DNA of 64,000 nucleotides from Oscillibacter sp. 1-3. Its GTDB lineage: Bacteria; Bacillota; Clostridia; Oscillospirales; Oscillospiraceae. The position numbers and the translations under genes were made by a program. The stretch is taken from the NCBI RefSeq assembly GCF_000403435.2, contig NZ_KE159711.1, forward strand, positions 236,880 to 300,879. Direction: 5' to 3'. Shown piece by piece: positions 6,085 through 62,481 of this stretch (the stretch's first letter is position 1; each line of letters begins with the position of its first letter). Below the pieces are notes generated by a model. That model worked only from the letters and a program-made list of their open reading frames with translations. It did not search any database and was not told the DNA's origin.

Positions 6085-6168
6085 AATTTTTCCTCCATAG
6101 TTTGATTTATTTTTTTGCTGGATACTTATATTTTAACAAAGAAATATGAACACCTTATGTCAAGGTTT

Positions 6169-49285: not shown

Positions 49286-50098
49286 TTACCTGGCTACCAG
49301 CGGTATTTGGAGCTCTGTGAGATATTTAGTCGGATCTGCCTCGTTCCAAGGTCCTCGATGCACGATCTGCCGTGTGGGACAGGTCATCTGATAAACGCCA
49401 TGCTGGCCCAACCACCTGGCAAAGGCGAGGTAGGCCCCCTTGATATTGGAAAAATCGCCATACACCATGGTACTAGCCATGATGGGCACAGGCTCTGTCA
49501 TACGGAACTGAAATGGCTCCACATCATCCATCAACTTATTCACGGGGGCGCATAGTTCGATGTCAACATCCTGCTCTTTGTACTCCGCATCGTGATAAAT
49601 TGAGAAGGTCTCACCAGAGAGGGCTATGTCTTGCGTTTTTGCAAAAGCGCAGAGTTCCCTCCACAGTTCTCCTTCCGAGTAGTATGTGGGCACCACCCTG
49701 CGCAGGGAAAGGACACGGTACTCCGGTACTGACTTGATGGAGATATTATAATGAAGATCACCACTGTTGCCCAATATCTGTTCCTGGGCAACAGCTATTT
49801 TCTGCAGCTTTTCCTGATCAGCCCGTATGGCCTGCTCAATCTCCAGACGTTTTTCCGAGAGATAGTCAAGTAGCGCACTGTCATCCATCTCCAGTGCCCG
49901 GGCAATCTCTGAAACTTGAAAACCGCTGTCCCGCAGGTATCGAATCCGGTTAAGATGTGGAATCTGCTCCGCAGCATACAGTCGGTGCCCCGTCCATGAA
50001 TCGACTTGCGCTGGTTTGAGAAGGCCCGCTTCATCATAGTACCGGAGCATCCGAATGGACACCTGGGTCAGCCTCGAAAATTCGCCGATCCGAAACAC
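49286..50098 (-). CDS. MerR-family regulator with GyrI-like effector domain
   Basis: 270 residues. MerR HTH at 1-70 (FRIGEFSRLTQVSIRMLRYYDEAGLLKP), a coiled coil at about 80-105, and a GyrI-like ligand domain (about 120-270) as in BmrR-type multidrug sensors. It stands upstream of the trmO-like gene, whose promoter has the matching palindrome, so it may also act there. Confidence 0.88.
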   Translation of the reverse strand: MFRIGEFSRLTQVSIRMLRYYDEAGLLKPAQVDSWTGHRLYAAEQIPHLNRIRYLRDSGFQVSEIARALEMDDSALLDYLSEKRLEIEQAIRADQEKLQKIAVAQEQILGNSGDLHYNISIKSVPEYRVLSLRRVVPTYYSEGELWRELCAFAKTQDIALSGETFSIYHDAEYKEQDVDIELCAPVNKLMDDVEPFQFRMTEPVPIMASTMVYGDFSNIKGAYLAFARWLGQHGVYQMTCPTRQIVHRGPWNEADPTKYLTELQIPLVAR

Positions 50099-50255
50099 AG
50101 CATCACCTCCCTGTATCCTATTATACTGAAACTTCCCTATACCTCAATTCTGCTTTTCAATTACCCAAAAATATTGTACTTTCCGACTTGGGGAACAGCT
50201 AAGAAATGGCCAGGGTCAAGGACTTTCCTATCCCTACAGGAGATGCCTTCGCATT

Positions 50256-50582
50256 TTACGTTCTGTCCGCCTTTTCATACCTGCTCTTCAAAAATTCCAT
50301 GTAATCCGTAAGGCTCTCCTGGGCCTTGGCCGGAAAACCAGCCGGGATTTGAAGCACATTGCGCTGGCCGCCGTATGGATTTGGATTGTCCGTCAGACCC
50401 AGCAGATAGTCAACGGAAACCTTAAAATATCTCGCAATCTCAATCTTGATCGCATCTGGCGGCTCACTTTTGCCCCGCTCATATGATGAAATGGAGTGCT
50501 TGTTTATCTTCAGTATCGCCGCCAATTCATCCTGCGTCAGCCCTGCATCCTTCCGCAGATCCAATAATCTCTCCCCTATCAT
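50256..50582 (-). CDS. XRE-family transcriptional regulator
   Basis: 108 residues. The Cro/C1 HTH covers about 5-60 (LLDLRKDAGLTQDELAAILKINKHSISSYERGKSEP), then VDYLLGLTDNPNPYG. It diverges from the gene at 50750. Operator-like sites resembling those of the XRE gene at 4651 fill the space between. A ribosome site (GGAGGG) is close to the ATG. Confidence 0.87.
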   Translation of the reverse strand: MIGERLLDLRKDAGLTQDELAAILKINKHSISSYERGKSEPPDAIKIEIARYFKVSVDYLLGLTDNPNPYGGQRNVLQIPAGFPAKAQESLTDYMEFLKSRYEKADRT

Positions 50583-50606
50583 CTGGAATCCCTCCTTTAT
50601 GGCCTC

Positions 50607-50715
50607 ATTATAGAATAATAAGTCCCTGCCGCTTTCATTATTGACAAAATAAACCCAACCTGATACATTATAGATAATTACTCGATTTTACGGCGCATGG
50701 TAGAAAATTATTCTT
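50607..50715. promoter_or_regulatory. Operator-like repeats between divergent genes
   Basis: Three AT-rich sites of related form: TATAGAATAATAAG (about 50610), TATAGATAATTACTC (about 50670) and TAGAAAATTATTCT (50701-50714, near-palindrome). They resemble the two sites before the XRE gene at 4651. Confidence 0.4.
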
Positions 50716-50749
50716 TCCCGTGGAGAGTCAGAAGGGGTGAGGCTTACAT

Positions 50750-51640
50750 ATGGATCATATTGCGGAATTGTCTGAGCTGGAGAATGAACTGGGCCAGCTT
50801 CTGCTGACAGAACAGGAATGCGCAGGTGTTTATTACCTGGTTGCTCAGCGTGATGATGAAGCTATCGCAACAGAGTATTACGCAGTCACGGATACGCCCA
50901 TCATATCGCAGGAAGCAAGGGAGTATGGGAAAAAGCACTCCATCTTTTGGCTGTTCTCCAAGGCGGAGGATGCAGGCGGCTGGCGGATCATTGACTATGA
51001 GCTTGGAAGATACCGGGTTCAGAATCACCTCAATCAAGCGTGCAGCCTCCATGAAATTGCGCTCAACGCGGCCGAATTCCACCCGGAGTATTTTGGTACA
51101 TACCCAGTCCCCTTCTCTTCACCGCGAGGGTACACCACTCGGTACTGGATTTTAGAGAATGGGATCTACTGGGTCGAGACAGACCAGTGTGAAGAATTTC
51201 TTACAGTCTGTTATCCTGTTTGGTCCACAGAACTATCCGGCTTGGCCATGCAGGTCGGTGAACAGCTGGAGCATGACAAAACACATGGCATACATCAGAC
51301 TCTGGGCTACATATTTTTCTCTTCCAGTGTCAGCTGCATTCCCATCCACGAGTTGATGCAGACACGCACGAAGTGGGACGGAGCCGTGATAGACAAACGG
51401 GCCTTAATGAATGTGATATGGAGACGTATGCCTGAGTACGCCGTCCTCGCAAACAGGTGGGAACAGACCGGGCAGAATAGTATCCTCTCCGTGATCCTGC
51501 CGCAGTTAGAGTTTGAACAAGAGCGGGTCATACAGAACGACCATATGATCACCATGTTCCCGGATGCCGGCGAAGATTACCAGCTATTCAAAAAAGCGGG
51601 TGCTGCTGCACAGTCCACCCAAAATCCATCGACAGAATAA
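50750..51640 (+). CDS. Hypothetical protein, 296 residues
   Basis: No family recognised. There is no signal peptide or membrane segment. The middle is Trp/Tyr-rich (YWILENGIYWVETDQCEEFLTVCYPVWS), and the C-terminus has a helical region (KRALMNVIWRRMPEYAVLANRW). It is divergent from an XRE regulator with shared operator-like DNA, which suggests control by that regulator. GAAGGGG lies 13-14 bases before the ATG. It ends in a strong terminator. Confidence 0.7.
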   Translation: MDHIAELSELENELGQLLLTEQECAGVYYLVAQRDDEAIATEYYAVTDTPIISQEAREYGKKHSIFWLFSKAEDAGGWRIIDYELGRYRVQNHLNQACSLHEIALNAAEFHPEYFGTYPVPFSSPRGYTTRYWILENGIYWVETDQCEEFLTVCYPVWSTELSGLAMQVGEQLEHDKTHGIHQTLGYIFFSSSVSCIPIHELMQTRTKWDGAVIDKRALMNVIWRRMPEYAVLANRWEQTGQNSILSVILPQLEFEQERVIQNDHMITMFPDAGEDYQLFKKAGAAAQSTQNPSTE

Positions 51641-51643
51641 CAA

Positions 51644-51681
51644 AGAAGCGGGCTGCCCATTCGTGGGGACAGCCCGCTTCT
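51644..51681 (+). terminator. Terminator of the 296-residue protein gene
   Basis: AGAAGCGGGCTG and CAGCCCGCTTCT (12-bp perfect arms) with CCC/GGGG extending the stem. Confidence 0.8.
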
Positions 51682-51747
51682 AATCTCTATACATATCCGG
51701 CATAAGGTGGTAAAATAGGGTCACGCCTAAGAAATCGGAGGTCTGCA

Positions 51748-52125
51748 ATGAAAACAAATGAAGAACTGCGCACCAGCCTGCGAGCCATCGACCGCAGAAG
51801 CTACCCTGCCTATAAGTCTCTGGCGGGAAACTGGTCTTTCGGTAAATATATCTTGAATATCGAACACGTCCAGGGAGACCCCTTCGCCGCACCATCGCAA
51901 CTCAGTGGGACGGTGGATAGCCGGACAGCGGGTTTCCCCACCGCCTGCTGGGAGGCCCCCTGGAATCGCACCGCCCTGGAGGATTACCTGCTCCGGCGCT
52001 TTGGCCGTCAGGCGGGGCGGTTCTTCCGCTTGGCCAGGGCTCCGGGAAGAGCGGGGTGCTGGCAGTGACCATTCCCGGCCAGGAGACACTGGAGCGGACG
52101 GACTGTGAGGTGCGCTCCGACGCTA
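51748..52125 (+). pseudogene. COG3044-type ABC-ATPase gene, N-terminal fragment
   Basis: The start MKTNEELRTSLRAIDRRSYPAYKSLAG and YILNIEHVQGDPFAAPSQL are typical of the large predicted ABC-ATPases of COG3044 (about 550 residues). A one-base shift near 52020-52035 moves the frame (RFF then LGQGSGKSGVLAVTIPGQE). The match ends at CEVRSDA near 52125. The middle of the protein, with its P-loop, is missing. The C-terminal part resumes at 52860. Confidence 0.8.
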
Positions 52126-52176
52126 TGTTACTTATTCAGTTGTGATTGTGGTAATAGTTGACTGTTATTCTAATAT

Positions 52177-52656
52177 TTAACCTAACTCCTTAAATTCTCC
52201 CTCCTGAATAGAAATATCAATATCAAATTTTGTGTTCGCGCCCGCAACTATCTTAATTCTATTGTTTCCACTTTCTATATTCAAAGTGCTTTGAATTGGC
52301 TCTGACATTTCGGTGTCACATTCAGCAATGATTGAAACATCTCCCTTGGGATTTATCAATACCAGTTTCATCTTTCCAGAGGAAACATTTATTATGTATG
52401 TTATCTCTAAAGATTTATCTTCCTCTGCGTCAAAAACCCATATGGTGTCCATACCCTCCATTTTTTCAACGCTTGCCGTAAAATGTCCGTCCTCTGCTGT
52501 TTGTTCATAAGTATTAAGATTATATGAATTTGTATTACTTGCTATTTTTATATCGTTGTCATATATGGCAACCATAAGATTTGCACAACCTGTCATTAAA
52601 CAAACAACAATCATTCCTGCACCAAGCATTTGCACCAAGCATTTTTTTGTTTTCAT
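52177..52656 (-). CDS. Small lipoprotein inserted within a split ATPase gene
   Basis: 159 residues. A hydrophobic signal ends in the lipobox MTGC. The mature part is rich in Asn, Asp, Ile and Lys with AT-rich codons, unlike the flanking ATPase pieces. The C-terminus is beta-rich (MKLVLINPKGDVSIIAECD). GGAGG precedes the ATG. The promoter probably lies in the 170-bp repeat copy just upstream. Function unknown; it looks acquired. Confidence 0.65.
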   Translation of the reverse strand: MKTKKCLVQMLGAGMIVVCLMTGCANLMVAIYDNDIKIASNTNSYNLNTYEQTAEDGHFTASVEKMEGMDTIWVFDAEEDKSLEITYIINVSSGKMKLVLINPKGDVSIIAECDTEMSEPIQSTLNIESGNNRIKIVAGANTKFDIDISIQEGEFKELG

Positions 52657-52692
52657 AATGTGCCTCCATAAGCTATGATTTATTCAATTAAG

Positions 52693-52862
52693 ATAGCTTT
52701 GCCCCCAACGTGGATCCTTCATGCGGATACGACCAATCATTTACCCAGCTCACATCATAGAAGCATTATAGAGAAAAAGCAATCAAAATTTCAAATTTAT
52801 ATGCAATCCATATCTTATTTTGAAGTTATTCATATTCTTGTCCACTATACTGGTGAAATCTC
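52693..52862 (-). repeat. 170-bp direct repeat, copy 1, carrying an outward promoter
   Basis: It matches 55058-55227 over 170 aligned bases with about 8-9 differences and no gaps. On the minus strand it contains TTGAAA (52794-52789), an 18-base spacer and TATAAT (52770-52765), directed at the lipoprotein gene. Its far end touches the resumed COG3044 ATPase reading frame, marking an insertion or recombination junction. Confidence 0.85.
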
Positions 52863-53436
52863 TTTCTTGGAGCGGGCGTTGGATCTGTGGCAGAAGGCGG
52901 GGGTATCTTTGATTCTGGTGGTGGGAAGCAGCGGAGCCTACTTCCATATTGCCAACTGTGTGGTGCAGATGGATGCCTACCACGCCAAAGATATCACGGC
53001 GCAGGTCAAAGCGGCGCTGGAAGGCCGGCCTGCACCCATGCTGTCTGCGCCAGGGTTCCATCTGCCTGCGGGCGGACGGGTTGTTGACCTGTCCGGCGAC
53101 CGCCAGACCCGGAAGAACTACCGCGGAAACGGATACTGTCAAGAGCGGCTGAATGTCAAGCGGTTCGGGAAGACCGCCTTCTCCGCAGGGGACCTGGAAC
53201 TGGATCTGCGCTATGTGGAGCAGCTGGTGGATGCCGGGCAGACTCTGGCTCTGGCTTACATGGTGCGCTACGCCCGGGAGCATCTGACGGGACAATCTGT
53301 GGAAGAAATTTCAGCAGCGCTGCTGCGGCTGGTGGAGTCAGGGGACCTTGGGGCCGTCTGCGGCAATGCGGTTGTCCCCGCCGGCCTGACGCTGCCCCGG
53401 CTCCAGGAGATATTTGCGTGTTTTAATCGCTGCTGA
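52860..53436 (+). pseudogene. COG3044-type ABC-ATPase gene, C-terminal fragment
   Basis: From FLERALDLWQKAGVSLILVVGSSGAYFHI through MDAYHAKDI and VVDLSGDRQTRKNYRGNG it matches the last ~190 residues of COG3044 ATPases. There is no start or ribosome site; the in-frame residues before 52860 come from the repeat. With the fragment at 51748-52125 it is one gene that lost its middle and gained the lipoprotein plus repeat. Confidence 0.8.
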
Positions 53437-53483
53437 GAGAACAACAAGAAAATATTGCTCACTACGCAATTTAATTATGAAGC

Positions 53484-53524
53484 AAGCAGGCGCGGCAAGA
53501 TCATAAATCTTACCGCGCCTGCTT
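53484..53524. terminator. Terminator between the ATPase remnant and the DUF3795 gene
   Basis: AAGCAGGCGCGG and CCGCGCCTGCTT with a further inner AAGAT/ATCTT stem. It serves the converging units. Confidence 0.75.
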
Positions 53525-53540
53525 ACTTGAAATGCCCTGC

Positions 53541-53915
53541 TCAGCGAATGCCGGTCTTAATGAATTCAATCAACTTTTCCACATCGTCAAATTCATCATA
53601 GTCACCAAATATTCCCTCACGGTGATAAAGAATGCCTCTTTTTTCATTTGCTTCAAGACAATCCAACAGATGCGTCTCCCCATACCGTTTGGCAAACAGG
53701 GTAAAGGCGTAGGGCTTGATTTTATTCAGTAATCCTTTTTTACAGGTCTCTGTGCAGGCATAACAATGCGAAATGCCCCTTTCGGAAGAGCACCTCTTGT
53801 TTTCGCACTTATCCGCATCGGGACATCCATCCGACCCACAGCCATCGCATCTCACGTTCTCCGAGCACAAACAGCACGCAAGGCCACATCGTGCAACACC
53901 TAGTTCTCGCCGCAT
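53541..53915 (-). CDS. DUF3795-type cysteine-rich protein
   Basis: 124 residues. At least 12 Cys within the first 60 residues (CGLACCLCSENVRCDGCGSDGC, then CENKRCSSERGISHCYACTETC) match DUF3795 zinc-binding proteins. The C-terminal half is helical (FDDVEKLIEFIKTG). It follows the HU gene on the same strand by 22 bases. Function unknown. Confidence 0.8.
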   Translation of the reverse strand: MRRELGVARCGLACCLCSENVRCDGCGSDGCPDADKCENKRCSSERGISHCYACTETCKKGLLNKIKPYAFTLFAKRYGETHLLDCLEANEKRGILYHREGIFGDYDEFDDVEKLIEFIKTGIR

Positions 53916-53937
53916 TTCCCCACCCCACCAAATCTTT

Positions 53938-54210
53938 TTACTGGATCGCGTCCTTCAGAGCTTTGCCAGCTTTGAATACCGGAGCTTTAGACGCAGCAAT
54001 CTCGACAGGTTCCTTTGTCCGTGGGTTCCGGCCGGTGCGGGCCGCACGGGCCTTGACCTCAAAAGAGCCAAAACCGACCAGCTGAACTTTATTCTCCGCC
54101 TTGAGCGCATTCTCCACAACTCCAGTAAATGCGTTCAGCGCAATTTCACAGTCCTTTTTGGGCAGGCCGCTGGCCTCAGCCATCGCAGTAATCAGTTCAT
54201 TTTTGTTCAT
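53938..54210 (-). CDS. hup: HU-family DNA-binding protein
   Basis: 90 residues, full length for HU. It starts MNKNELITAMAEASGLPKKD, with the beta-arm core VGFGSFEVKARAARTGRNPRT and the C-terminal FKAGKALKDAI. It bends and compacts DNA as a dimer. I chose the ATG at 54210 over 54216 because GGAG is correctly spaced only for it. Confidence 0.95.
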   Translation of the reverse strand: MNKNELITAMAEASGLPKKDCEIALNAFTGVVENALKAENKVQLVGFGSFEVKARAARTGRNPRTKEPVEIAASKAPVFKAGKALKDAIQ

Positions 54211-54294
54211 AAACATTCTCCTTCTGTATAAAAAGTCGCTCGTGTAATTATAGCCGCCCCATTGGGAAAAGGCAACCTACATCTCAGAAATTCT

Positions 54295-55059
54295 TTATTC
54301 CTTACTATACTTGTCATAGCGGCACTGCTCAAATACAGCGTTTCCCAACAGTGTAATCGCCTGCGCAGGGCATGAACTGATGCAGCGATAACACATTGTG
54401 CAACGATCTCCCGCTGTTGCTTTGTGATTCTTTAGGGTGATGTTTCCCATTGGGCATATCTGGGCACATAGTCCGCAGCCCACACAGGCTTCACTGATTT
54501 TCAGCTTATCAGAGTAGTCCTTCGTCTTGCCATAATACCATAGGCGCTGACCCAAGAGGCCTGCTGCTCTGTTATAAAAGTTTAAGCCATCCCTTGGGTA
54601 TTTGCCTTGCTTGATCTCTTGCGCACATTTTTCAATCTTTCTGTCCGCCGCTTTTATGATCTCCCGATTTTTTTCAACAGATCTTTTCAGCAGCTTCACA
54701 TCGCAAATCGAATCCGGCATACAGATATGCAGGCCGCCAACGATACTCGCGCCACACTTTTTCAATAGCCGTGCAGAACATCCTGCTCCATCCCCGCTGA
54801 ACAATCCCATTGTGGCAACACAAAGCACTTGCTTGTTTTTCCAAAGTTCCGAATTGTCTTTGATAAAGTTCCGTACCATAACTGGCGCATTGGAGAATTG
54901 AACGGGGTATGCCAATACAATAAACTCGTGCTGTGATAATAAACGCACAGTTTCTTTTCCCTCAATGGGAACTGCCTGCGCATTTTCATCCAATAAATAA
55001 ATCAGCTTTTCGATACAGTGTTTTGTGTTCCCTGTTCCACTTAAATATACGCCAATCAT
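54295..55059 (-). CDS. EFR1-type flavodoxin-ferredoxin fusion protein
   Basis: 254 residues. The N-terminal flavodoxin-like domain has the FMN phosphate loop SGTGNTKHC (about 8-16). The C-terminal ferredoxin part holds two [4Fe-4S] motifs, CVGCGLCAQICPMG and CTMCYRCISSCPAQ. EFR1 proteins carry electrons between unknown partners in anaerobes. The ATG is at the edge of the 170-bp repeat, so its original upstream region has been replaced; the repeat's promoter would drive it. Confidence 0.88.
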   Translation of the reverse strand: MIGVYLSGTGNTKHCIEKLIYLLDENAQAVPIEGKETVRLLSQHEFIVLAYPVQFSNAPVMVRNFIKDNSELWKNKQVLCVATMGLFSGDGAGCSARLLKKCGASIVGGLHICMPDSICDVKLLKRSVEKNREIIKAADRKIEKCAQEIKQGKYPRDGLNFYNRAAGLLGQRLWYYGKTKDYSDKLKISEACVGCGLCAQICPMGNITLKNHKATAGDRCTMCYRCISSCPAQAITLLGNAVFEQCRYDKYSKE

Positions 55060-55227
55060 AGCTTTGCCCCCAACGTGGATTCTTCATGCGGATACGACCA
55101 ATCATTTCCCCAGCTCACATTGTAGAAGCATTATAGAGAAAAAGCAATCAAAATTTCAAATTTATATGCAATCCATATCTTATTTTGATGTTGTTCATAT
55201 CCTTGTCCACTATACTGGTGAAACCTC
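55058..55227 (-). repeat. 170-bp direct repeat, copy 2
   Basis: See copy 1 at 52693-52862. The promoter elements are kept (TATAAT on the minus strand at 55135-55130). It reads into the EFR1 gene. The plus-strand YhfC gene begins 58 bases beyond its other end. Confidence 0.85.
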
Positions 55228-55284
55228 GCTTGGCCTTCTACTTGGTGGATGGTGTATTGTGGGGATAGAAAGGAGTTGCTGAAA

Positions 55285-56109
55285 ATGTTAGAAAGTTTGA
55301 CTGTAACCCCAACAGCTATCATCATCATGGCGTTGGTTGGTCTGTTCACACTGGTACTACCGCTGGGGCTTGGAATTTTCTTTTGGCGAAAGTCAAAGGG
55401 GCGGTGGCGGTTTTTCTTCATTGGCTGTATCATATTCCCCGTCTTTGTGCTGATCCTGGAACGGACTGCACACAGCCTCCTGCTCTATGGCGCTCCTGGA
55501 GCAGTGCTGCAGGAAAACATCTGGCTGTATGCTTTTTATGCCGGTCTGATGGCGGGCGTTTTTGAGGAATGCGGCCGCTGGCTGGCTTTCAAGCTTTCCC
55601 TCCGATGGAGCCGAGGGCCAGGGGATGCGCTGATGTACGGCGCGGGACATGGAGGCATAGAGGCGATTCTGCTGGCCGGGATGACGATGTTAAGCAATAT
55701 TACGCTCGCTTTGGCTTTGAATCGCGGCGGACTGGAAGCGGTAGAGGCTATGATGGGTCCTTTATCGGAAACGGGGCTGGCTGCCATCCAGGGCTTATGC
55801 GCTAACCCGGCAGGCATCTATTTCTGGACCGGTTTTGAACGGCTGGTGGCGGTGGGGCTGCACATCGCGCTGTCGGTACTGGTGTATGTCTCTGTAAGGC
55901 GGAGGGACAACTGGTTCTGGTTCCCCGCCGCCATCCTGCTCCACACCCTGGTAGATATGGTGACGATCCTTGCCAATGCCTGGCTACCCATTGCGGCTAC
56001 TGAGGTGATTGCCGCCCTGCTGACTCTGGGCAGCATCGCCCTGGCCCGCAAAGTTTATATAGAAGAGAAAGAGGACAGCCTACCACCATTTTCCGGCTCG
56101 CACCCCTGA
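55285..56109 (+). CDS. YhfC-family intramembrane metalloprotease
   Basis: 274 residues, about eight transmembrane helices. EECGRWLAF, YGAGHGGIEAILL and HTLVDMVTI supply the Glu/His residues of the YhfC family, related to CPBP-type membrane proteases. AAAGGAG lies 9 bases before the chosen ATG (MLESLTVTP); upstream in-frame residues are not conserved-looking. Substrate unknown. Confidence 0.82.
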   Translation: MLESLTVTPTAIIIMALVGLFTLVLPLGLGIFFWRKSKGRWRFFFIGCIIFPVFVLILERTAHSLLLYGAPGAVLQENIWLYAFYAGLMAGVFEECGRWLAFKLSLRWSRGPGDALMYGAGHGGIEAILLAGMTMLSNITLALALNRGGLEAVEAMMGPLSETGLAAIQGLCANPAGIYFWTGFERLVAVGLHIALSVLVYVSVRRRDNWFWFPAAILLHTLVDMVTILANAWLPIAATEVIAALLTLGSIALARKVYIEEKEDSLPPFSGSHP

Positions 56110-56215
56110 AGTGCTTTCTGAAAATTCTTTCCCATGCTATAAAAGAGCATTGTGTGAGAAGCACCCCCCAAAAGCACATGCTATGATAGGCCCATCAAAC
56201 ATAGGAGGTGCCAAT

Positions 56216-57160
56216 ATGCACGCATGGGAAACAATCGAACACTCTTTGGATTACATTGATGAGCATCTGGGGGAAGAGGTCAAGATCGAAGAGTTGGCCG
56301 GTATGGCCGCTCTCTCGCCATTTTACTTTCAGCGACTGTTCAAACGTCTAGTACACAAGCCGGTTCAGGAGTATGTCAAACTCCGTCGGCTGGCCAAAGC
56401 GGTAGAAGCCTTGCGTGATCCGAGCCGGAGGATACTCGATGTGGCTCTGGACTACGGCTTTTCCAGCCACGCCAATTTCACGCGGGCCTTCAAAGACGCC
56501 TACACAATTACCCCGGAAGAGTATCGGAAGGCGCTCCCTATGCTCAACACTTTTGACCGCCCGGAGGTCGCTGCCAACTATGTGCTGATTAGCGAGGGTG
56601 TTCCGCTGGTGGTGGGAGATATCGTCCTGGAGCTCGAACGGAAGAGTCTAACCGCACCGGAATCCTATATCGGGTTTGAAACCGCTGTCAGCATCGCCGC
56701 GCAGACGCCGGTCGGTGAGAGTACCGGCGTGGATGTTCCCGGCCAGCTCTGGCGCCAGTATCACACCGAGCGGAACGCCACTTCCCCAGGGATCCATACC
56801 GGGGTGGAACTGGGGATGTCGCACTCGGCGGATCCTAAGCTGGGTACTTTCCGGTATTTTGCTGGCGGATTGGCGAAAAGTGGTCCCGGCCCGCTTCCGG
56901 ACGGCATGGTTCTGCGGGAGCTGCCCGCTGGCGAGTATGCCGTCTGTAAAGTGGAAGCAGAAGATTTCGAGACGCTGGTGACCGTTGCTCTGAACCAGGC
57001 CAGCCGGTATCTCTTTGGCACATGGCTTCCGCAGCACAGTCTCACGACCGAGCCGTTTTCGGCTGAAAAGTATTATCGGACCACGGAAGATGTAGCTTAT
57101 ATGGAGCTGTGGGTCATGCCCAAACCCACGCTCACCGCAGACGGAGCTACAACTGTGTGA
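56216..57160 (+). CDS. AraC-family regulator with GyrI-like effector domain
   Basis: 314 residues. Two HTH motifs at about 10-110 (LAGMAALSPFYFQRLFKRLV and ILDVALDYGFSSHANFTRAFKD), then an effector-binding domain of GyrI/Rob type (about 150-314). AGGAGG 7 bases before the ATG fixes the start. Rob-like proteins sense drugs or small molecules; no pump gene is adjacent except YhfC upstream. Confidence 0.88.
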   Translation: MHAWETIEHSLDYIDEHLGEEVKIEELAGMAALSPFYFQRLFKRLVHKPVQEYVKLRRLAKAVEALRDPSRRILDVALDYGFSSHANFTRAFKDAYTITPEEYRKALPMLNTFDRPEVAANYVLISEGVPLVVGDIVLELERKSLTAPESYIGFETAVSIAAQTPVGESTGVDVPGQLWRQYHTERNATSPGIHTGVELGMSHSADPKLGTFRYFAGGLAKSGPGPLPDGMVLRELPAGEYAVCKVEAEDFETLVTVALNQASRYLFGTWLPQHSLTTEPFSAEKYYRTTEDVAYMELWVMPKPTLTADGATTV

Positions 57161-57690
57161 GGACTCCAGAACAAGCCCGTCTTGCGCCTTGTCCACATAC
57201 ACCTGCACACGGAATCTTCCCTACTGGATGGTACCAGCCACAATAAAAAAGGGAAGGTGGTACAGATATAAAAACAGGGGCCAGAAACGACCTTGTTAAC
57301 ATGCGGTCAAGAGGCTGAAAAAGTATATGGAGCATTAGAGCTGAAGACAAGGTGGAAAAAATTCTCTGAAACCATCTTTGCAGGAAAGATTAACTATTAG
57401 AAGTCACCCCCGCCAAAATGAAGGACGGTGGAAAAAGTTAGATGATTCAAAAAGGGTATAGCAAAGCAGAGGTCCAGGAGGACCCCGGATAGCTATTGAG
57501 AGGAATCAGATCGCTGGGCAATAAGGCTGTTTGGATCTCCAGAGCGAAGATACGCCGCACCAGTTTCTTATAAGGCGACGTTGCTTGCCGTTTAGCACAT
57601 TCCCCGGAAACAGTGCAAAAATGGAGTAGGTGCTTTTAGCGTGTGATAACCATTCACAAGGGTTATCCAAATTTTATTTTTAAGACCAAA
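57161..57690. other. Intergenic region without supported genes
   Basis: About 530 bases of mixed composition between the AraC gene and the BlaI promoter. No frame has a ribosome site or recognisable protein. Its end at 57690 borders the BlaI promoter. Confidence 0.45.
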
Positions 57691-57696
57691 GTAGTA

Positions 57697-57753
57697 TTGA
57701 CAAGAAATTAAGACTGTGGTAGTATATTAGCGTAGCCACTACCACAGTCTTAA
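57697..57753 (+). promoter_or_regulatory. Promoter with perfect dyad operator for the BlaI-type gene
   Basis: TTGACA (57697-57702), 17-base spacer, TAGTAT (57720-57725). A perfect 16-bp inverted repeat (57708-57723 and 57738-57753, 14-base spacer, core ACTGTGGTAGT) covers the -10 region. BlaI-type repressors bind such dyads, often with a TAGTA-like core, so this is probably its own operator. Confidence 0.85.
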
Positions 57754-57770
57754 AAAGGAGGTGTTACCAA

Positions 57771-58130
57771 ATGGACATTAAGCTGTTTGCTTCTGAACTG
57801 AAAGTGATGTCCGTCCTTTGGCGCGATGGCGACGTTCCCGCGAAACATATCGCCAAACTGCTGACCGAGGAATTGGGCTGGAATGTAAATACCACCTATA
57901 CCCTGATTAAGCGTTGCATTAAAAAGGGGGCTATTGAACGCTCCGAACCCGGTTTCATATGTCATGCGCTTGTACCGCAGGCGGAAGTACAGGAGGCGGA
58001 AACAAACGAGCTGATCGACAGGGTATATGACGGCTCTGCCGACAAGCTGTTCGCGGCTTTGCTGGGGCGAAAAAAACTGAGTGCCGAGCAAATTGAAAAG
58101 CTGAAACAGATTGTTGGGGATTTGGAATGA
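57771..58130 (+). CDS. BlaI/MecI/CopY-family repressor
   Basis: 119 residues. Winged helix SELKVMSVLWRDGDVPAKHIAKLL...NTTYTLIKRCIKKGAIERSEPGF and a C-terminal dimerisation helix (KLSAEQIEKLKQIV). It is normally inactivated by a BlaR1/M56 sensor-protease after beta-lactam or wall stress. The partner gene starts 10 bases downstream but is truncated, so repression here may be locked. AAAAGGAGG before the ATG. Confidence 0.92.
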   Translation: MDIKLFASELKVMSVLWRDGDVPAKHIAKLLTEELGWNVNTTYTLIKRCIKKGAIERSEPGFICHALVPQAEVQEAETNELIDRVYDGSADKLFAALLGRKKLSAEQIEKLKQIVGDLE

Positions 58131-58140
58131 GGTGGTGCAA

Positions 58141-58425
58141 ATGAGCTTTGCGGGGGCCGTGATGATTTTGGCAATCACCATCATACGCGCCCTGGCGATC
58201 AGCTTACTGCCCAAAAAGACTTTCCTGGCACTTTGGGGGATAGCGGTTGCGCGGCTGTTGCTCCCGTTCTCACTCCCCTCCACGTTCAGCGTATATTCGC
58301 TGATAGGCAGTCAAACTTCCGGGATTGCCGCAACAAAAGTCCCACAGATTAACAAGGTTTTGCCGATTGATACGATAGGGCAAATGGCTACTATGCCCGG
58401 TGTCAACGCCAATTTGAAATTGTAA
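58141..58425 (+). pseudogene. M56/BlaR1-type sensor protease, N-terminal fragment cut by IS21
   Basis: About 94 residues remain: MSFAGAVMILAITIIRALAIS, LPKKTFLALWGIAVARLLLP and a short loop. They are the first two membrane helices of BlaR1-like proteins. The zinc protease domain and sensor are gone. The last codons and the stop (TTG TAA) fall in the left end of the IS element. Confidence 0.88.
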
Positions 58426-58477
58426 GAAAACGCCGAAGAAATTTTGTAGTTTTTCGGCGGGGGGGGGGGTAACAGAA

Positions 58478-59275
58478 TCAGTTATTTCCTTGCAGGAAAA
58501 GAGTATTTACGATTTGCTGTTTCTGGCGCATAAATTCCTTGCGCTCCTTCAGGCGGTAAGACTCACCCTTGATGTTGATAACGGTGCAGTGATGCAGTAC
58601 ACGATCCAGGATGGCGGAGGCGATGGTGACGTCGGCAAAGACCTCGTTCCACTGGGAGAAGGTTTTGTTGGAGGTGAAGACGGTGGATGTTTTCTCGTAC
58701 CGCCTGGCAATGAGCTGAAAGAACAGGTTTGCACCCTGGATGTCCATGGGGAGGTAGCCGATTTCGTCGATGATGAGCATCCTGTACTTGGCCAGAACCT
58801 TGAGCTTGTCCGGCAGACGGTTCTCAAAATGGGCCTTCTTGAGCTGTTCAATGAGCTGGTGGCAGTTGATGTAGTAGGTGGAGAAACGGTGCTGTGCCGC
58901 CACCAGGCCCAAAGCGGAGGCCAGATGGGTCTTGCCCACGCCGGGCGGGCCGAGGAAGACCACATTCTCCCCGTTTTCCAGGAAGCGCATGGTAGCCAAC
59001 TCATCGATCTGGCGCTTGTCGATGGAGGGCTGGAAAGAGAAATCGAAGTCGTCCAGGGTTTTCTTAATGGGAAAGCCAGACATCTGGATCTGCTTCTCAT
59101 AGGCCCGTCTCCGCTTGGATTTGGCTTCTTCTGAGAAAATGTGATCCAAAACCTCCACAATGTTGAGCTTGTCCGCCACCGCCCGTTCCAGGTAGTTGTC
59201 CAGAATCTCCAGGGTGTTTTTCATTTTAAGGGCTTCCAGGTTTTCCCTCAGCCTGTCCATAGTAAATTCAGTCAT
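58478..59275 (-). CDS. istB: IstB-type ATP-binding helper of IS21
   Basis: 265 residues. Walker A GPPGVGKTHLASAL, Walker B LIIDEIGYLPMD, sensor region SNKTFSQWNEVF. It is a AAA+ ATPase (DnaC-like) that assembles on target DNA and stimulates IstA. I chose ATG at 59275, overlapping the IstA stop by 8 bases, rather than the ATG at 59290. Confidence 0.93.
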   Translation of the reverse strand: MTEFTMDRLRENLEALKMKNTLEILDNYLERAVADKLNIVEVLDHIFSEEAKSKRRRAYEKQIQMSGFPIKKTLDDFDFSFQPSIDKRQIDELATMRFLENGENVVFLGPPGVGKTHLASALGLVAAQHRFSTYYINCHQLIEQLKKAHFENRLPDKLKVLAKYRMLIIDEIGYLPMDIQGANLFFQLIARRYEKTSTVFTSNKTFSQWNEVFADVTIASAILDRVLHHCTVINIKGESYRLKERKEFMRQKQQIVNTLFLQGNN

Positions 59276-60491
59276 ACAGCACCTCGTCATATCTGGATAA
59301 ATCGGAGGGCTTCAAGGGGAAATCTATTACTTTGCCCTGTTCCAGCAGAACATTTTCCGCATCTATTGTCTGTTTCAGCGTAATCCTTCTATAGTGCTGA
59401 GGATTGACAACCATGTCCTTCCTTTGATACGATATTCGATGCAGAGCGATCTGCTTTCCCTCATAGTAGGCGGCCAGCATACTGTCGAGGGCCACGACTG
59501 CCACATCTTTGCCGATGTACTCCGCTGGCACGGAGTACTGATTCCCGGCGTATGAGATGAGGCAGTCTTTTTGTACCCGCCTAAGGTTGATCTTGTCGAT
59601 GATGTACTCACGGGAAAGAGGACTCAGCCCCTCTTTTTGCAGCCGCTCAAAGGGAATCTCGTTGGTGGTGGCATGGACTTTGCCATTGACCTTATTACAC
59701 CAAGCCAAGGCTTGTCCATTCAAATCTGCCAGGCTGTTGTACTTGATCCCGACCATGAAGTTGTCCCGCACAAACTGCACCGTCCGCTCCACTTTTCCTT
59801 TCGTCTGACCACGATATGGCCGGCACAGGATGGGTTTGAATCCATAGAATCCCGCGAAGTCCTCAAACTGCCGGTTTAGTGTGGAGTCCTCCTGCTTCAA
59901 AAGCCGCTTGATGACTACCTGCTTCATGTTATCGTACAGAATCTCCTCCGGGTAGCCTCCGAAATACCGAAACGCGTTCTGATGGCACCGTATCAACGTG
60001 TTTGTGCTCATATCTGTGACAAATTCGATGTACCGCATCCTTGAGTACCCCAGAATCATGAGAAAGCAGTACAGCTTCTTCCACTTTCCGTCCTCGTATA
60101 CCAGGTGATCCTCGAAGAATCCCCAGTCCATCTGCCCTTGCTTTCCTGGCATCGTCTCAAACCGCACCGTTGCTTTCTCATTCAAGTCCATCTTCCGGCT
60201 GCTCACATACGCCTTGACAATACTGTAACCTCCGTCAAACCCCATCTCCCGCAGCTTCTCCAGTATCCGCAACGCTGAATACGGCGCCTCTTCCAGCCAC
60301 TCGTCCACGATCTGCTTGTACGGGTCCATCTTTGTTGGCTTGGGTTCGCTCAATGTGTACTCCGGCTTCTGCGGCGATTCCGCGTACCGCTTTGCCGTCC
60401 GCGGGTCCATGTGGTACTTCCGTCCCAGCTCCACATAGCTCAGCCCTTTTTGTCTGTCGCTTCGGATATCCATCCACTGTGCTCCTTTCAT
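59268..60491 (-). CDS. istA: IS21-family transposase
   Basis: 407 residues. HTH at about 10-35 (DRQKGLSYVELGRKYHMDPRTAKRYA). The DDE core shows QMDWGFFED, EEILYDNMKQV and GKVERTVQFVRD; a C-terminal beta domain follows (YSVPAEYIGKDV). Complete, so the element may be active. Confidence 0.93.
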   Translation of the reverse strand: MKGAQWMDIRSDRQKGLSYVELGRKYHMDPRTAKRYAESPQKPEYTLSEPKPTKMDPYKQIVDEWLEEAPYSALRILEKLREMGFDGGYSIVKAYVSSRKMDLNEKATVRFETMPGKQGQMDWGFFEDHLVYEDGKWKKLYCFLMILGYSRMRYIEFVTDMSTNTLIRCHQNAFRYFGGYPEEILYDNMKQVVIKRLLKQEDSTLNRQFEDFAGFYGFKPILCRPYRGQTKGKVERTVQFVRDNFMVGIKYNSLADLNGQALAWCNKVNGKVHATTNEIPFERLQKEGLSPLSREYIIDKINLRRVQKDCLISYAGNQYSVPAEYIGKDVAVVALDSMLAAYYEGKQIALHRISYQRKDMVVNPQHYRRITLKQTIDAENVLLEQGKVIDFPLKPSDLSRYDEVLYD

Positions 60492-60993: not shown

Positions 60994-62481
60994 CTACGTC
61001 AGCGCCTTGAAACCCTTGGGCGTCAGGATGTTGAAAATCATCTTATTGGCAATGGTCTCGTGGATCTCCTCGCCCATGTGCTTCCCATGGGAGTTGAACC
61101 GCTCCTCGCTTTCCCTGCGGACCACTTTGACAATCCGGCCTTTGATGATATGGGGTGAATCGCACTCGATCAGCCCGTTGATCATGCCGGAGCCGCCTAC
61201 CAGCCCGATCTGGCTGATGGAAAGCGGCAGAAGGGGCCGCTTCTCACCATTGTCCAGTTCGCTTCGCCGGGACATCATCTCCGTAAAGCTGGCGGAACGC
61301 CGGAGCTGCTGTTCCAGCTCTTTCCGGTTAAATACCGCTCCCTGGAACATCGGGACCTCCAGGAATTGTTCCGGCAGGGCATACCGGTCCTCCGGCAGCT
61401 CCGTCAGGCTGGGGATGGCGGCGGGATCTTCCGCATACCGTTCCAGCCAAAAGGTATCCTGGGGCTCCCGGTCCCGGTGTTTTCGGATACCGAATACCGC
61501 CACTTGCTTGAACTTCTTAAACTCGGCGTCGGTAAAGCGCCAGACGGAGAGCCCGTCGAAGTTGTCTACCAGTACCCGGCAGATGTCCGGCGTCAGGCGG
61601 TAGTAGGGGATGACGTAAATCAGCAGTCCGCCGTAGGCCAGAGCCGGAAGGGATTCAATCAGCAAACGCTTCTCATGCCGTGACTTCCCGCCGCTCTCGC
61701 CCAGAACGGACAGATACGGCGGGTTCAGGAACAGCAGATGGAACGCCTCCCGGCTGATCTGGCTGAAAAAGAAGCTGCCGAAGCCCACGCGATGCAGTCT
61801 CGTTTGGGCTTCTTTCGCCCGGCTTTCGTCCAGCTTCACCCCGTAGGCGTAGCAGTTATTGCCCTGGGCAATCTGCCGCAGGGCCTTGCCGCACCCGCAG
61901 CAGGGGGCCCGGAGATTCGTGGTAACGCCCTCCGGGAACAGGATTCCGCGGAGCATCAATGCGATGTTGTCCGGGTCCGTGGGGTAGTAGCCCAGCTTGA
62001 TATTGTTCATGAGCCGCCCAACAATGGCGGCGTTGGTAGTGCCCTCCACTGGAAGTCTTTGGGCAAAGGCATGGAGTGTGTCATAGACGGGCCGGTAATT
62101 GCCGCTCATGAGGTTGAAACCAAACAGGCCATCCCGGAGCTTTCCGGCGGTGGCGGCGGTCTGGTACTCCTCCGCCTCCGTCAGAAGCAGACGGGTCTCC
62201 CCCAGAACCTCCGCCAGATCACGGCGGACGCTCAGCAAAACGTCAAAGGCGTCCTTGGCGGCGGCGAGGTCCGCAGTCCGGTACTTTCCCACCCTGGCCT
62301 GCCAAACGACCAACGATTGGGACAGGTTCAGGAGGCGCTTTTGCGCCTCACGAAGCTGTTCCACCGCGTAATACTGCGGCCCGTCTCCCCGCAAGGGGGA
62401 TGCGACGGCTCTAAGCGGCATAGCCGCTAAGAGTCCGTCCAAAGGCTGCCCGGTCGTATCGACCGCCGTCGTGCCGCCCAT
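60994..62481 (-). CDS. DUF6094-like putative DNA adenine methyltransferase
   Basis: 495 residues. A helical N-terminal region leads to a Rossmann MTase domain: motif I-like RAPCCGCGKALRQIA, then LFLNPPYLSVLGESGG, where NPPY is the catalytic motif of N6-adenine MTases. The C-terminal ~150 residues are unassigned. AGGAGG 9 bases before the ATG at 62481 fixes the start, even though it overlaps the upstream gene by 71 bases. Carried by conjugative elements, where it may protect DNA from restriction. Target specificity unknown. Confidence 0.78.
   Translation of the reverse strand: MGGTTAVDTTGQPLDGLLAAMPLRAVASPLRGDGPQYYAVEQLREAQKRLLNLSQSLVVWQARVGKYRTADLAAAKDAFDVLLSVRRDLAEVLGETRLLLTEAEEYQTAATAGKLRDGLFGFNLMSGNYRPVYDTLHAFAQRLPVEGTTNAAIVGRLMNNIKLGYYPTDPDNIALMLRGILFPEGVTTNLRAPCCGCGKALRQIAQGNNCYAYGVKLDESRAKEAQTRLHRVGFGSFFFSQISREAFHLLFLNPPYLSVLGESGGKSRHEKRLLIESLPALAYGGLLIYVIPYYRLTPDICRVLVDNFDGLSVWRFTDAEFKKFKQVAVFGIRKHRDREPQDTFWLERYAEDPAAIPSLTELPEDRYALPEQFLEVPMFQGAVFNRKELEQQLRRSASFTEMMSRRSELDNGEKRPLLPLSISQIGLVGGSGMINGLIECDSPHIIKGRIVKVVRRESEERFNSHGKHMGEEIHETIANKMIFNILTPKGFKALT

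Follow-up and report, generated by a model that had tools for sequence, protein, structure and literature searches.

How does one promoter-like sequence come to lie in front of two unrelated genes of the same genome? This question is raised by a 64,000-nucleotide stretch of the Oscillibacter sp. 1-3 genome (hereafter the window), in which an earlier note had described a direct repeat of about 170 bp and about 95% identity, each copy ending at or near the start of a minus-strand gene, and had suggested that it might be a mobile cassette carrying a promoter, or else a site of recombination. The answer that we consider likely is a one-off promoter capture by illegitimate recombination, followed by exchange through ordinary recombination, with no mobile promoter involved.

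The repeat itself was borne out. Its two copies, 52693-52862 (copy 1) and 55058-55227 (copy 2), are direct, 170 nt long, 95% identical (8 of 170 positions differ) and spaced by 2365 nt; no other family of direct repeats reaching 30 nt occurs in 50000-58000, and beyond the limits of the two copies the surroundings share scattered identity at most. The 22-base core of the repeat has two exact matches in the window, whereas 100 shuffles gave 0.01 on average; the repeat is real and chance is excluded. Copy 2 (minus strand) ends at the ATG of an EFR1 family ferredoxin gene (54295-55059, minus), whose native upstream region it represents, with promoter-like hexamers, a 5' leader and GGGGG ahead of the start codon. 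Copy 1 (minus strand), an extra EFR1 upstream region, lies between a lipoprotein block and the 3' fragment of an ATPase gene, and ends 37 bp ahead of the ATG of a lipoprotein-like ORF (52177-52656, minus), so that the wording "at or near" was correct. Two candidate functions of the repeat were rejected. A 20-codon frame ends on the EFR1 start codon; it is not a conserved leader peptide, its variable sites are amino-acid changing (alignment read by eye), and neither an NCBIfam nor a plasmid match to it was found. An RNA element was dismissed in the same way, as Rfam gave no match within the repeat; two Rfam matches below the gathering score fall at a hairpin near 53480.

Within each copy, TTGAAA-18-TATAAT matches the promoter consensus on the minus strand (52765-52794 in copy 1, 55130-55159 in copy 2). 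These are the only two sigma-70-like 11/12 matches, and the best two, in the 4 kb from 51600 to 55600, where matches of at least 9/12 number 16 versus 5.3 in shuffles. The match in copy 1 faces the lipoprotein gene and that in copy 2 faces EFR1, so the proposal of a promoter-like stretch aimed at two unrelated genes stands on the basis of the consensus, and copy 1 would be expected to drive the lipoprotein gene. Upstream of EFR1 in three relatives, designated G199, G200 and G201, one hexamer is altered in each case (-35: TAGAAA in G200 and TTGGAA in G201; -10: TATCAT in G199), and the promoter hexamers at this site are not fixed among relatives.

On its other side, copy 1 meets an ABC-class ATPase gene that is broken in the window. 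The 5' fragment (51748-52119, plus), itself frameshifted, carries the ABC_N domain in an ORF at 51748-52068, while the 3' fragment (52864-53436, plus) belongs to the same family according to domain matches and relatives, with the end of ABC_ATPase and MRB1590_C in an ORF that crosses copy 1 and runs to 53436. A comparison with empty sites, as the earlier note had proposed, yielded uninterrupted genes in three genomes: G199 and G201 encode an intact 568-aa protein that has all three domains, and the counterpart in G031 is an open frame of 577 aa. Homology to the intact G199 and G201 genes ends at 52119 and restarts at 52864, directly after copy 1 stops at 52862; one end of the repeat thus indeed marks the broken gene. 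Between these limits G199 and G201 each have 761 bp, versus 744 bp in the window, the latter consisting of the lipoprotein block and copy 1. The 761-bp middle from G199 had no match in the window's own genome among the 40 of 87 candidates scored, in a search run without a positive control.

The lipoprotein block (52113-52695, minus) is 93.7% identical to positions 874-1444 of contig C13 in G200, where the upstream region is a different one. Its ORF encodes 159 aa with a signal peptide and an LMTGC lipobox (by eye), has no Pfam match at E 0.1 and retains its own ribosome-binding-like TGGAGG at the ATG (by eye). Homology to G200 stops at 52695, no more than 3 bp from where copy 1 begins, and the sequence upstream of the G200 homologue is not the repeat. 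In a search of 149 genomes, three contained relatives of the lipoprotein, namely the own genome, G200 (listed there also as G033) and G142 (25-28%), with G200 as the sole close one; the block was absent from the matches in G201. In comparison with G200 the frame is open and has 17 changes, 6 synonymous and 11 non-synonymous (dN/dS about 0.45), which weakly favours the idea that the lipoprotein is used. One could go further and propose that the fusion was retained for putting a surface protein under the redox-linked promoter of the EFR1 ferredoxin, and that the lipoprotein gene was kept intact within a dead ATPase gene through being expressed and useful; we regard this as rather doubtful. A separate observation concerns the G200 locus (C13, L054:650-814): upstream of the lipoprotein homologue lies a MITE-like repeat of about 165 bp with 20-nt end arms that are 90% complementary, which recurs at ten more G200 sites (98-99%) and one G201 site (83%), and a DUF772 transposase ORF is found 2 kb away.

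Genome comparisons identify the native copy. The own genome contains two copies of the repeat, and one copy was found in each of G199 (133 bp shared), G200 and G201, in every case upstream of EFR1 (all candidates scored in G199 and G200, 40 of 52 in G201). This distribution marks copy 2 as the ordinary EFR1 upstream region and copy 1 as the additional one. Among the matches listed in a search of 199 genomes with the 170-mer, three genomes appeared: the own genome, G033 (170 of 170 bases, 95%), which we took to be G200 on account of agreeing contig numbers, lengths and match positions, and G143, whose match of 44 bases and 39 bits was too weak to be counted. A second search of 400 genomes gave two among the matches listed, the own genome and G348; the latter covers 47 query bases at the lipoprotein block end only and was left uncounted, and G033 was not among these matches, evidently because it was outside that draw. 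A scan of genome_contigs with one exact 22-mer, the core, found three stretches, all from Oscillospiraceae (MGBC contigs) and corresponding to G199, G200 and G201, and no stretch in viral_contigs. Carriage by a phage or plasmid was rejected, as neither the repeat nor the lipoprotein had a match among phages or plasmids.

These counts, together with the ends of the repeat, bear on whether the promoter moves as an element. No target duplication was seen in the flanks of the repeat, inverted pairs of 30 nt or more were absent from 50000-58000, and the longest inverted arms within the 170 bp (copy 2) measure 8 nt and are internal. Thus, neither the terminal inverted repeats nor the target-site duplication of a MITE or transposon was found, and 761 bp of the target were lost. 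Moreover, the sequence shared upstream of EFR1 has an outer limit of 133, about 170 or about 180 nt depending on context, instead of the fixed crossover end in all copies that characterizes a site-specific recombination site. A promoter-spreading element, be it a mobile promoter or MITE-like, would fit one promoter-like sequence before two unrelated genes, but the genome-wide search with its two own copies and single copies at EFR1 elsewhere, the three core matches in genome_contigs, the silence of viral_contigs, plasmids and phages, and the ends just described make it very improbable. Neither the mobile cassette nor the recombination site of the earlier note is therefore upheld.

Reportedly, the putative mobile promoters of Matus-Garcia (2012) are similar sequences ahead of non-homologous genes in one genome. 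Our locus resembles them in this respect: a homologous promoter region does precede non-homologous genes here, with similarity that stops at the repeat ends. Unlike such promoters, it comprises two copies only, of which one is native, and no propagation beyond the native and one extra copy was seen in the own genome, in G199, G200 and G201 or among the matches listed from the 199 and 400 genomes. Putative mobile promoters are described in passages of PMC9208149, PMC8049555 and PMC4596501 that cite the original work.

The tract contains three joints: ATPase to lipoprotein block, lipoprotein block to repeat, and repeat to ATPase. Scored in ungapped register, with the nearest relatives standing in for the true donors as parents, they have 5 (CGCTC), 3 (ATA) and 1 bases common to both parents, respectively. 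An equal-base model gives a random joint a probability of 0.005 for 5 or more shared bases, 0.05 for 3 or more and 0.44 for 1 or more. Because the third joint shares a single base, as expected randomly at 0.44, and reaches 3 only by assuming one lost base, the use of microhomology is suggestive at the first two joints only. Three abrupt joints inside 750 bp could also come from an assembly artefact that joined separate fragments. Yet the order and orientation of the two ATPase pieces are as expected, the site is on a 405 kb contig, and copy 1 bears substitutions of its own and is therefore not a misplaced read of copy 2, so that we consider such an artefact highly improbable.

Evidence on the age and route of the insertion came from the comparison with G201, which differs from the window by 4-20% in a tract from 51750 to 54000 where alignable, versus less than 1% in the flanks (tract ends approximate, based on 150- and 250-base bins). 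Only 7 of 1555 bases differ in 50195-51749 and 12 of 1750 in 54000-55749, while the divergence is about 6.5% in 51750-52119, 20% in 52864-53436, 7.8% in 53483-53749 and 4% in 53750-53999. The tract contains the broken ATPase gene, the lipoprotein block and copy 1, and the divergence step indicates that these have another history than their flanks. The idea that the ATPase 3' fragment by itself is foreign was considered and rejected: G199 and G201 are themselves 14% apart in this region, so that its divergence need not imply a separate origin. The step from below 1% to 4-20% suggests that the chimera was probably passed between lineages by recombination; the exchange may have taken place in either of the two genomes, this one or G201, and in either direction. 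An exchanged tract explains why copy 1 and copy 2 differ by 4.7% when EFR1 differs by one base from G201. A further bin, 55750-55999 in the YhfC gene, has 17 of 250 bases different from G201, compared with 3 and 1 in the adjacent bins, and is perhaps a second small recombination tract.

The same data bear on whether the EFR1 promoter was simply duplicated locally, to a site 2.4 kb away in this genome, the event which the earlier note had named as its own refutation. Such an event would agree with the closeness and common orientation of the copies, and over the 170 positions copy 1 is no closer to any relative (G200: 8 differences, G201: 10) than to copy 2 (8). Against it, the copies differ at 8 of 170 positions although the EFR1 gene beside copy 2 has a single base difference from G201 over 254 codons, copy 1 agrees with G200 at repeat positions 35 and 147, where copy 2 and G201 differ from it, and the divergent tract encloses copy 1. 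Site 120 of the repeat supports a grouping other than that of positions 35 and 147. Judged by these substitutions, copy 1 is too diverged to be a recent copy of copy 2; a local duplication as the sole event is not well supported and appears improbable to us, while an old one may have preceded the exchange.

A more elaborate alternative turns on the EFR1 gene and its neighbours. The ferredoxin gene, with flavodoxin-like and 4Fe-4S domains and an NCBIfam EFR1 match, is followed by a conserved downstream part (53483-54216, minus) that comprises an HU gene (53938-54216), a cysteine-rich ORF (53541-53915) and an end hairpin (by eye). EFR1 has a dN/dS of 0.17-0.24 in five comparisons with enough changes, the sixth, window versus G201, showing one synonymous change in 254 codons. 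If this block, from the hairpin to the 170-bp promoter, were a mobile operon cassette, copy 1 could be the promoter end that remained after the cassette had once inserted into the ATPase gene and the lipoprotein block had overwritten everything else of it. This would be in line with homology that begins at one common hairpin (53483-53485) in the window, G199, G200 and G201, with left flanks that differ among all four and right flanks of three kinds (window and G201 alike), and with the location of block and ATPase gene on separate contigs in G199 (C4 and C9).

Some of these differences may have other causes, however. In G199 (C4, L005 near 6125-6147), the YhfC and AraC-type genes are missing between EFR1 and a BlaI-type gene, whose upstream region is joined to that of EFR1 across 16 similar bases, 2 of them mismatched, near 57662; this right end is explicable by a deletion, an event comparable to those at the joints of the window. 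In G200, the block adjoins two-component-system genes that in the window lie at a distance of 5 kb, and part of its left flank is located near the ATPase gene in G201; with such shared neighbours, some flank differences can be deletions and insertion sequences at one locus. In addition, the outer end of the block varies (133, about 170 and about 180 nt), and neither a recombinase within it nor end repeats were seen. A candidate empty site of the whole block was rejected: beyond the ATPase gene, G201:C50 has two stretches that match the G200 left flank, but the right flank has no match at G201:C50, and an empty site is therefore not demonstrated. Altogether, we consider a mobile EFR1 block unlikely.

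For the promoter capture that we prefer, we infer the order of events, the mechanism and the direction of transfer as follows. Part of an EFR1 upstream region, whose source was probably a related lineage, would have been fused by illegitimate joining to the 5' side of the lipoprotein gene block. The lipoprotein-plus-promoter piece would then have displaced about 760 bp inside the ABC-class ATPase gene, the lipoprotein gene gaining a new putative promoter and losing its former upstream region. Finally, the finished chimera would have passed from one lineage to another, with homologous recombination in the flanks as the most likely route.

Both parts of this scheme have counterparts. For regulatory regions, Oren (2014) is said to have described horizontal regulatory transfer with "switched" intergenic regions. 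Our case is similar in that the same lipoprotein gene has unrelated, non-homologous upstream regions in two genomes, for one gene and one genome pair, but differs in that its gene neighbourhood changed as well and is therefore no switch between conserved gene pairs. Such transfer is also described in PMC5890482. Promoter capture by illegitimate recombination is known from experimental fusions that arise via deletion or tandem duplication, as described in PMC11111574. As in these, a gene is joined to another gene's promoter (assigned here by consensus) without a transposase or site-specific signature: the G200 homologue lacks the repeat, which stands at EFR1 in three relatives. Unlike in those cases, part of a third gene gave way here to a promoter piece plus a gene, with expression of the latter predicted from sequence. 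The principle that a gene may gain a new promoter by recombination without long joint homology is already established; the locus adds a fairly clean example from gut Oscillospiraceae, for which intact alleles of the target exist, as does a homologue of the captured gene that still has a different context.

Other rearrangements were noticed nearby. In the window, the BlaR1/M56 peptidase gene, which is uninterrupted in G201 (550 aa), is broken at 58399 and followed by an IS21-type pair (58399-60491; IstB at 58478-59290, integrase-core protein at 59268-60491). In G201, a stretch beside the L054 mutator-family transposase gene recurs in many places (among them C56 at both ends, C47, C107 and C78), often at contig starts; an insertion sequence at which the assembly breaks is the probable explanation. 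Further along the window, 60994-62481 holds a DUF6094 methyltransferase ORF; such ORFs are common on integrative elements, so an element or its remnant may occupy the right end of the window.
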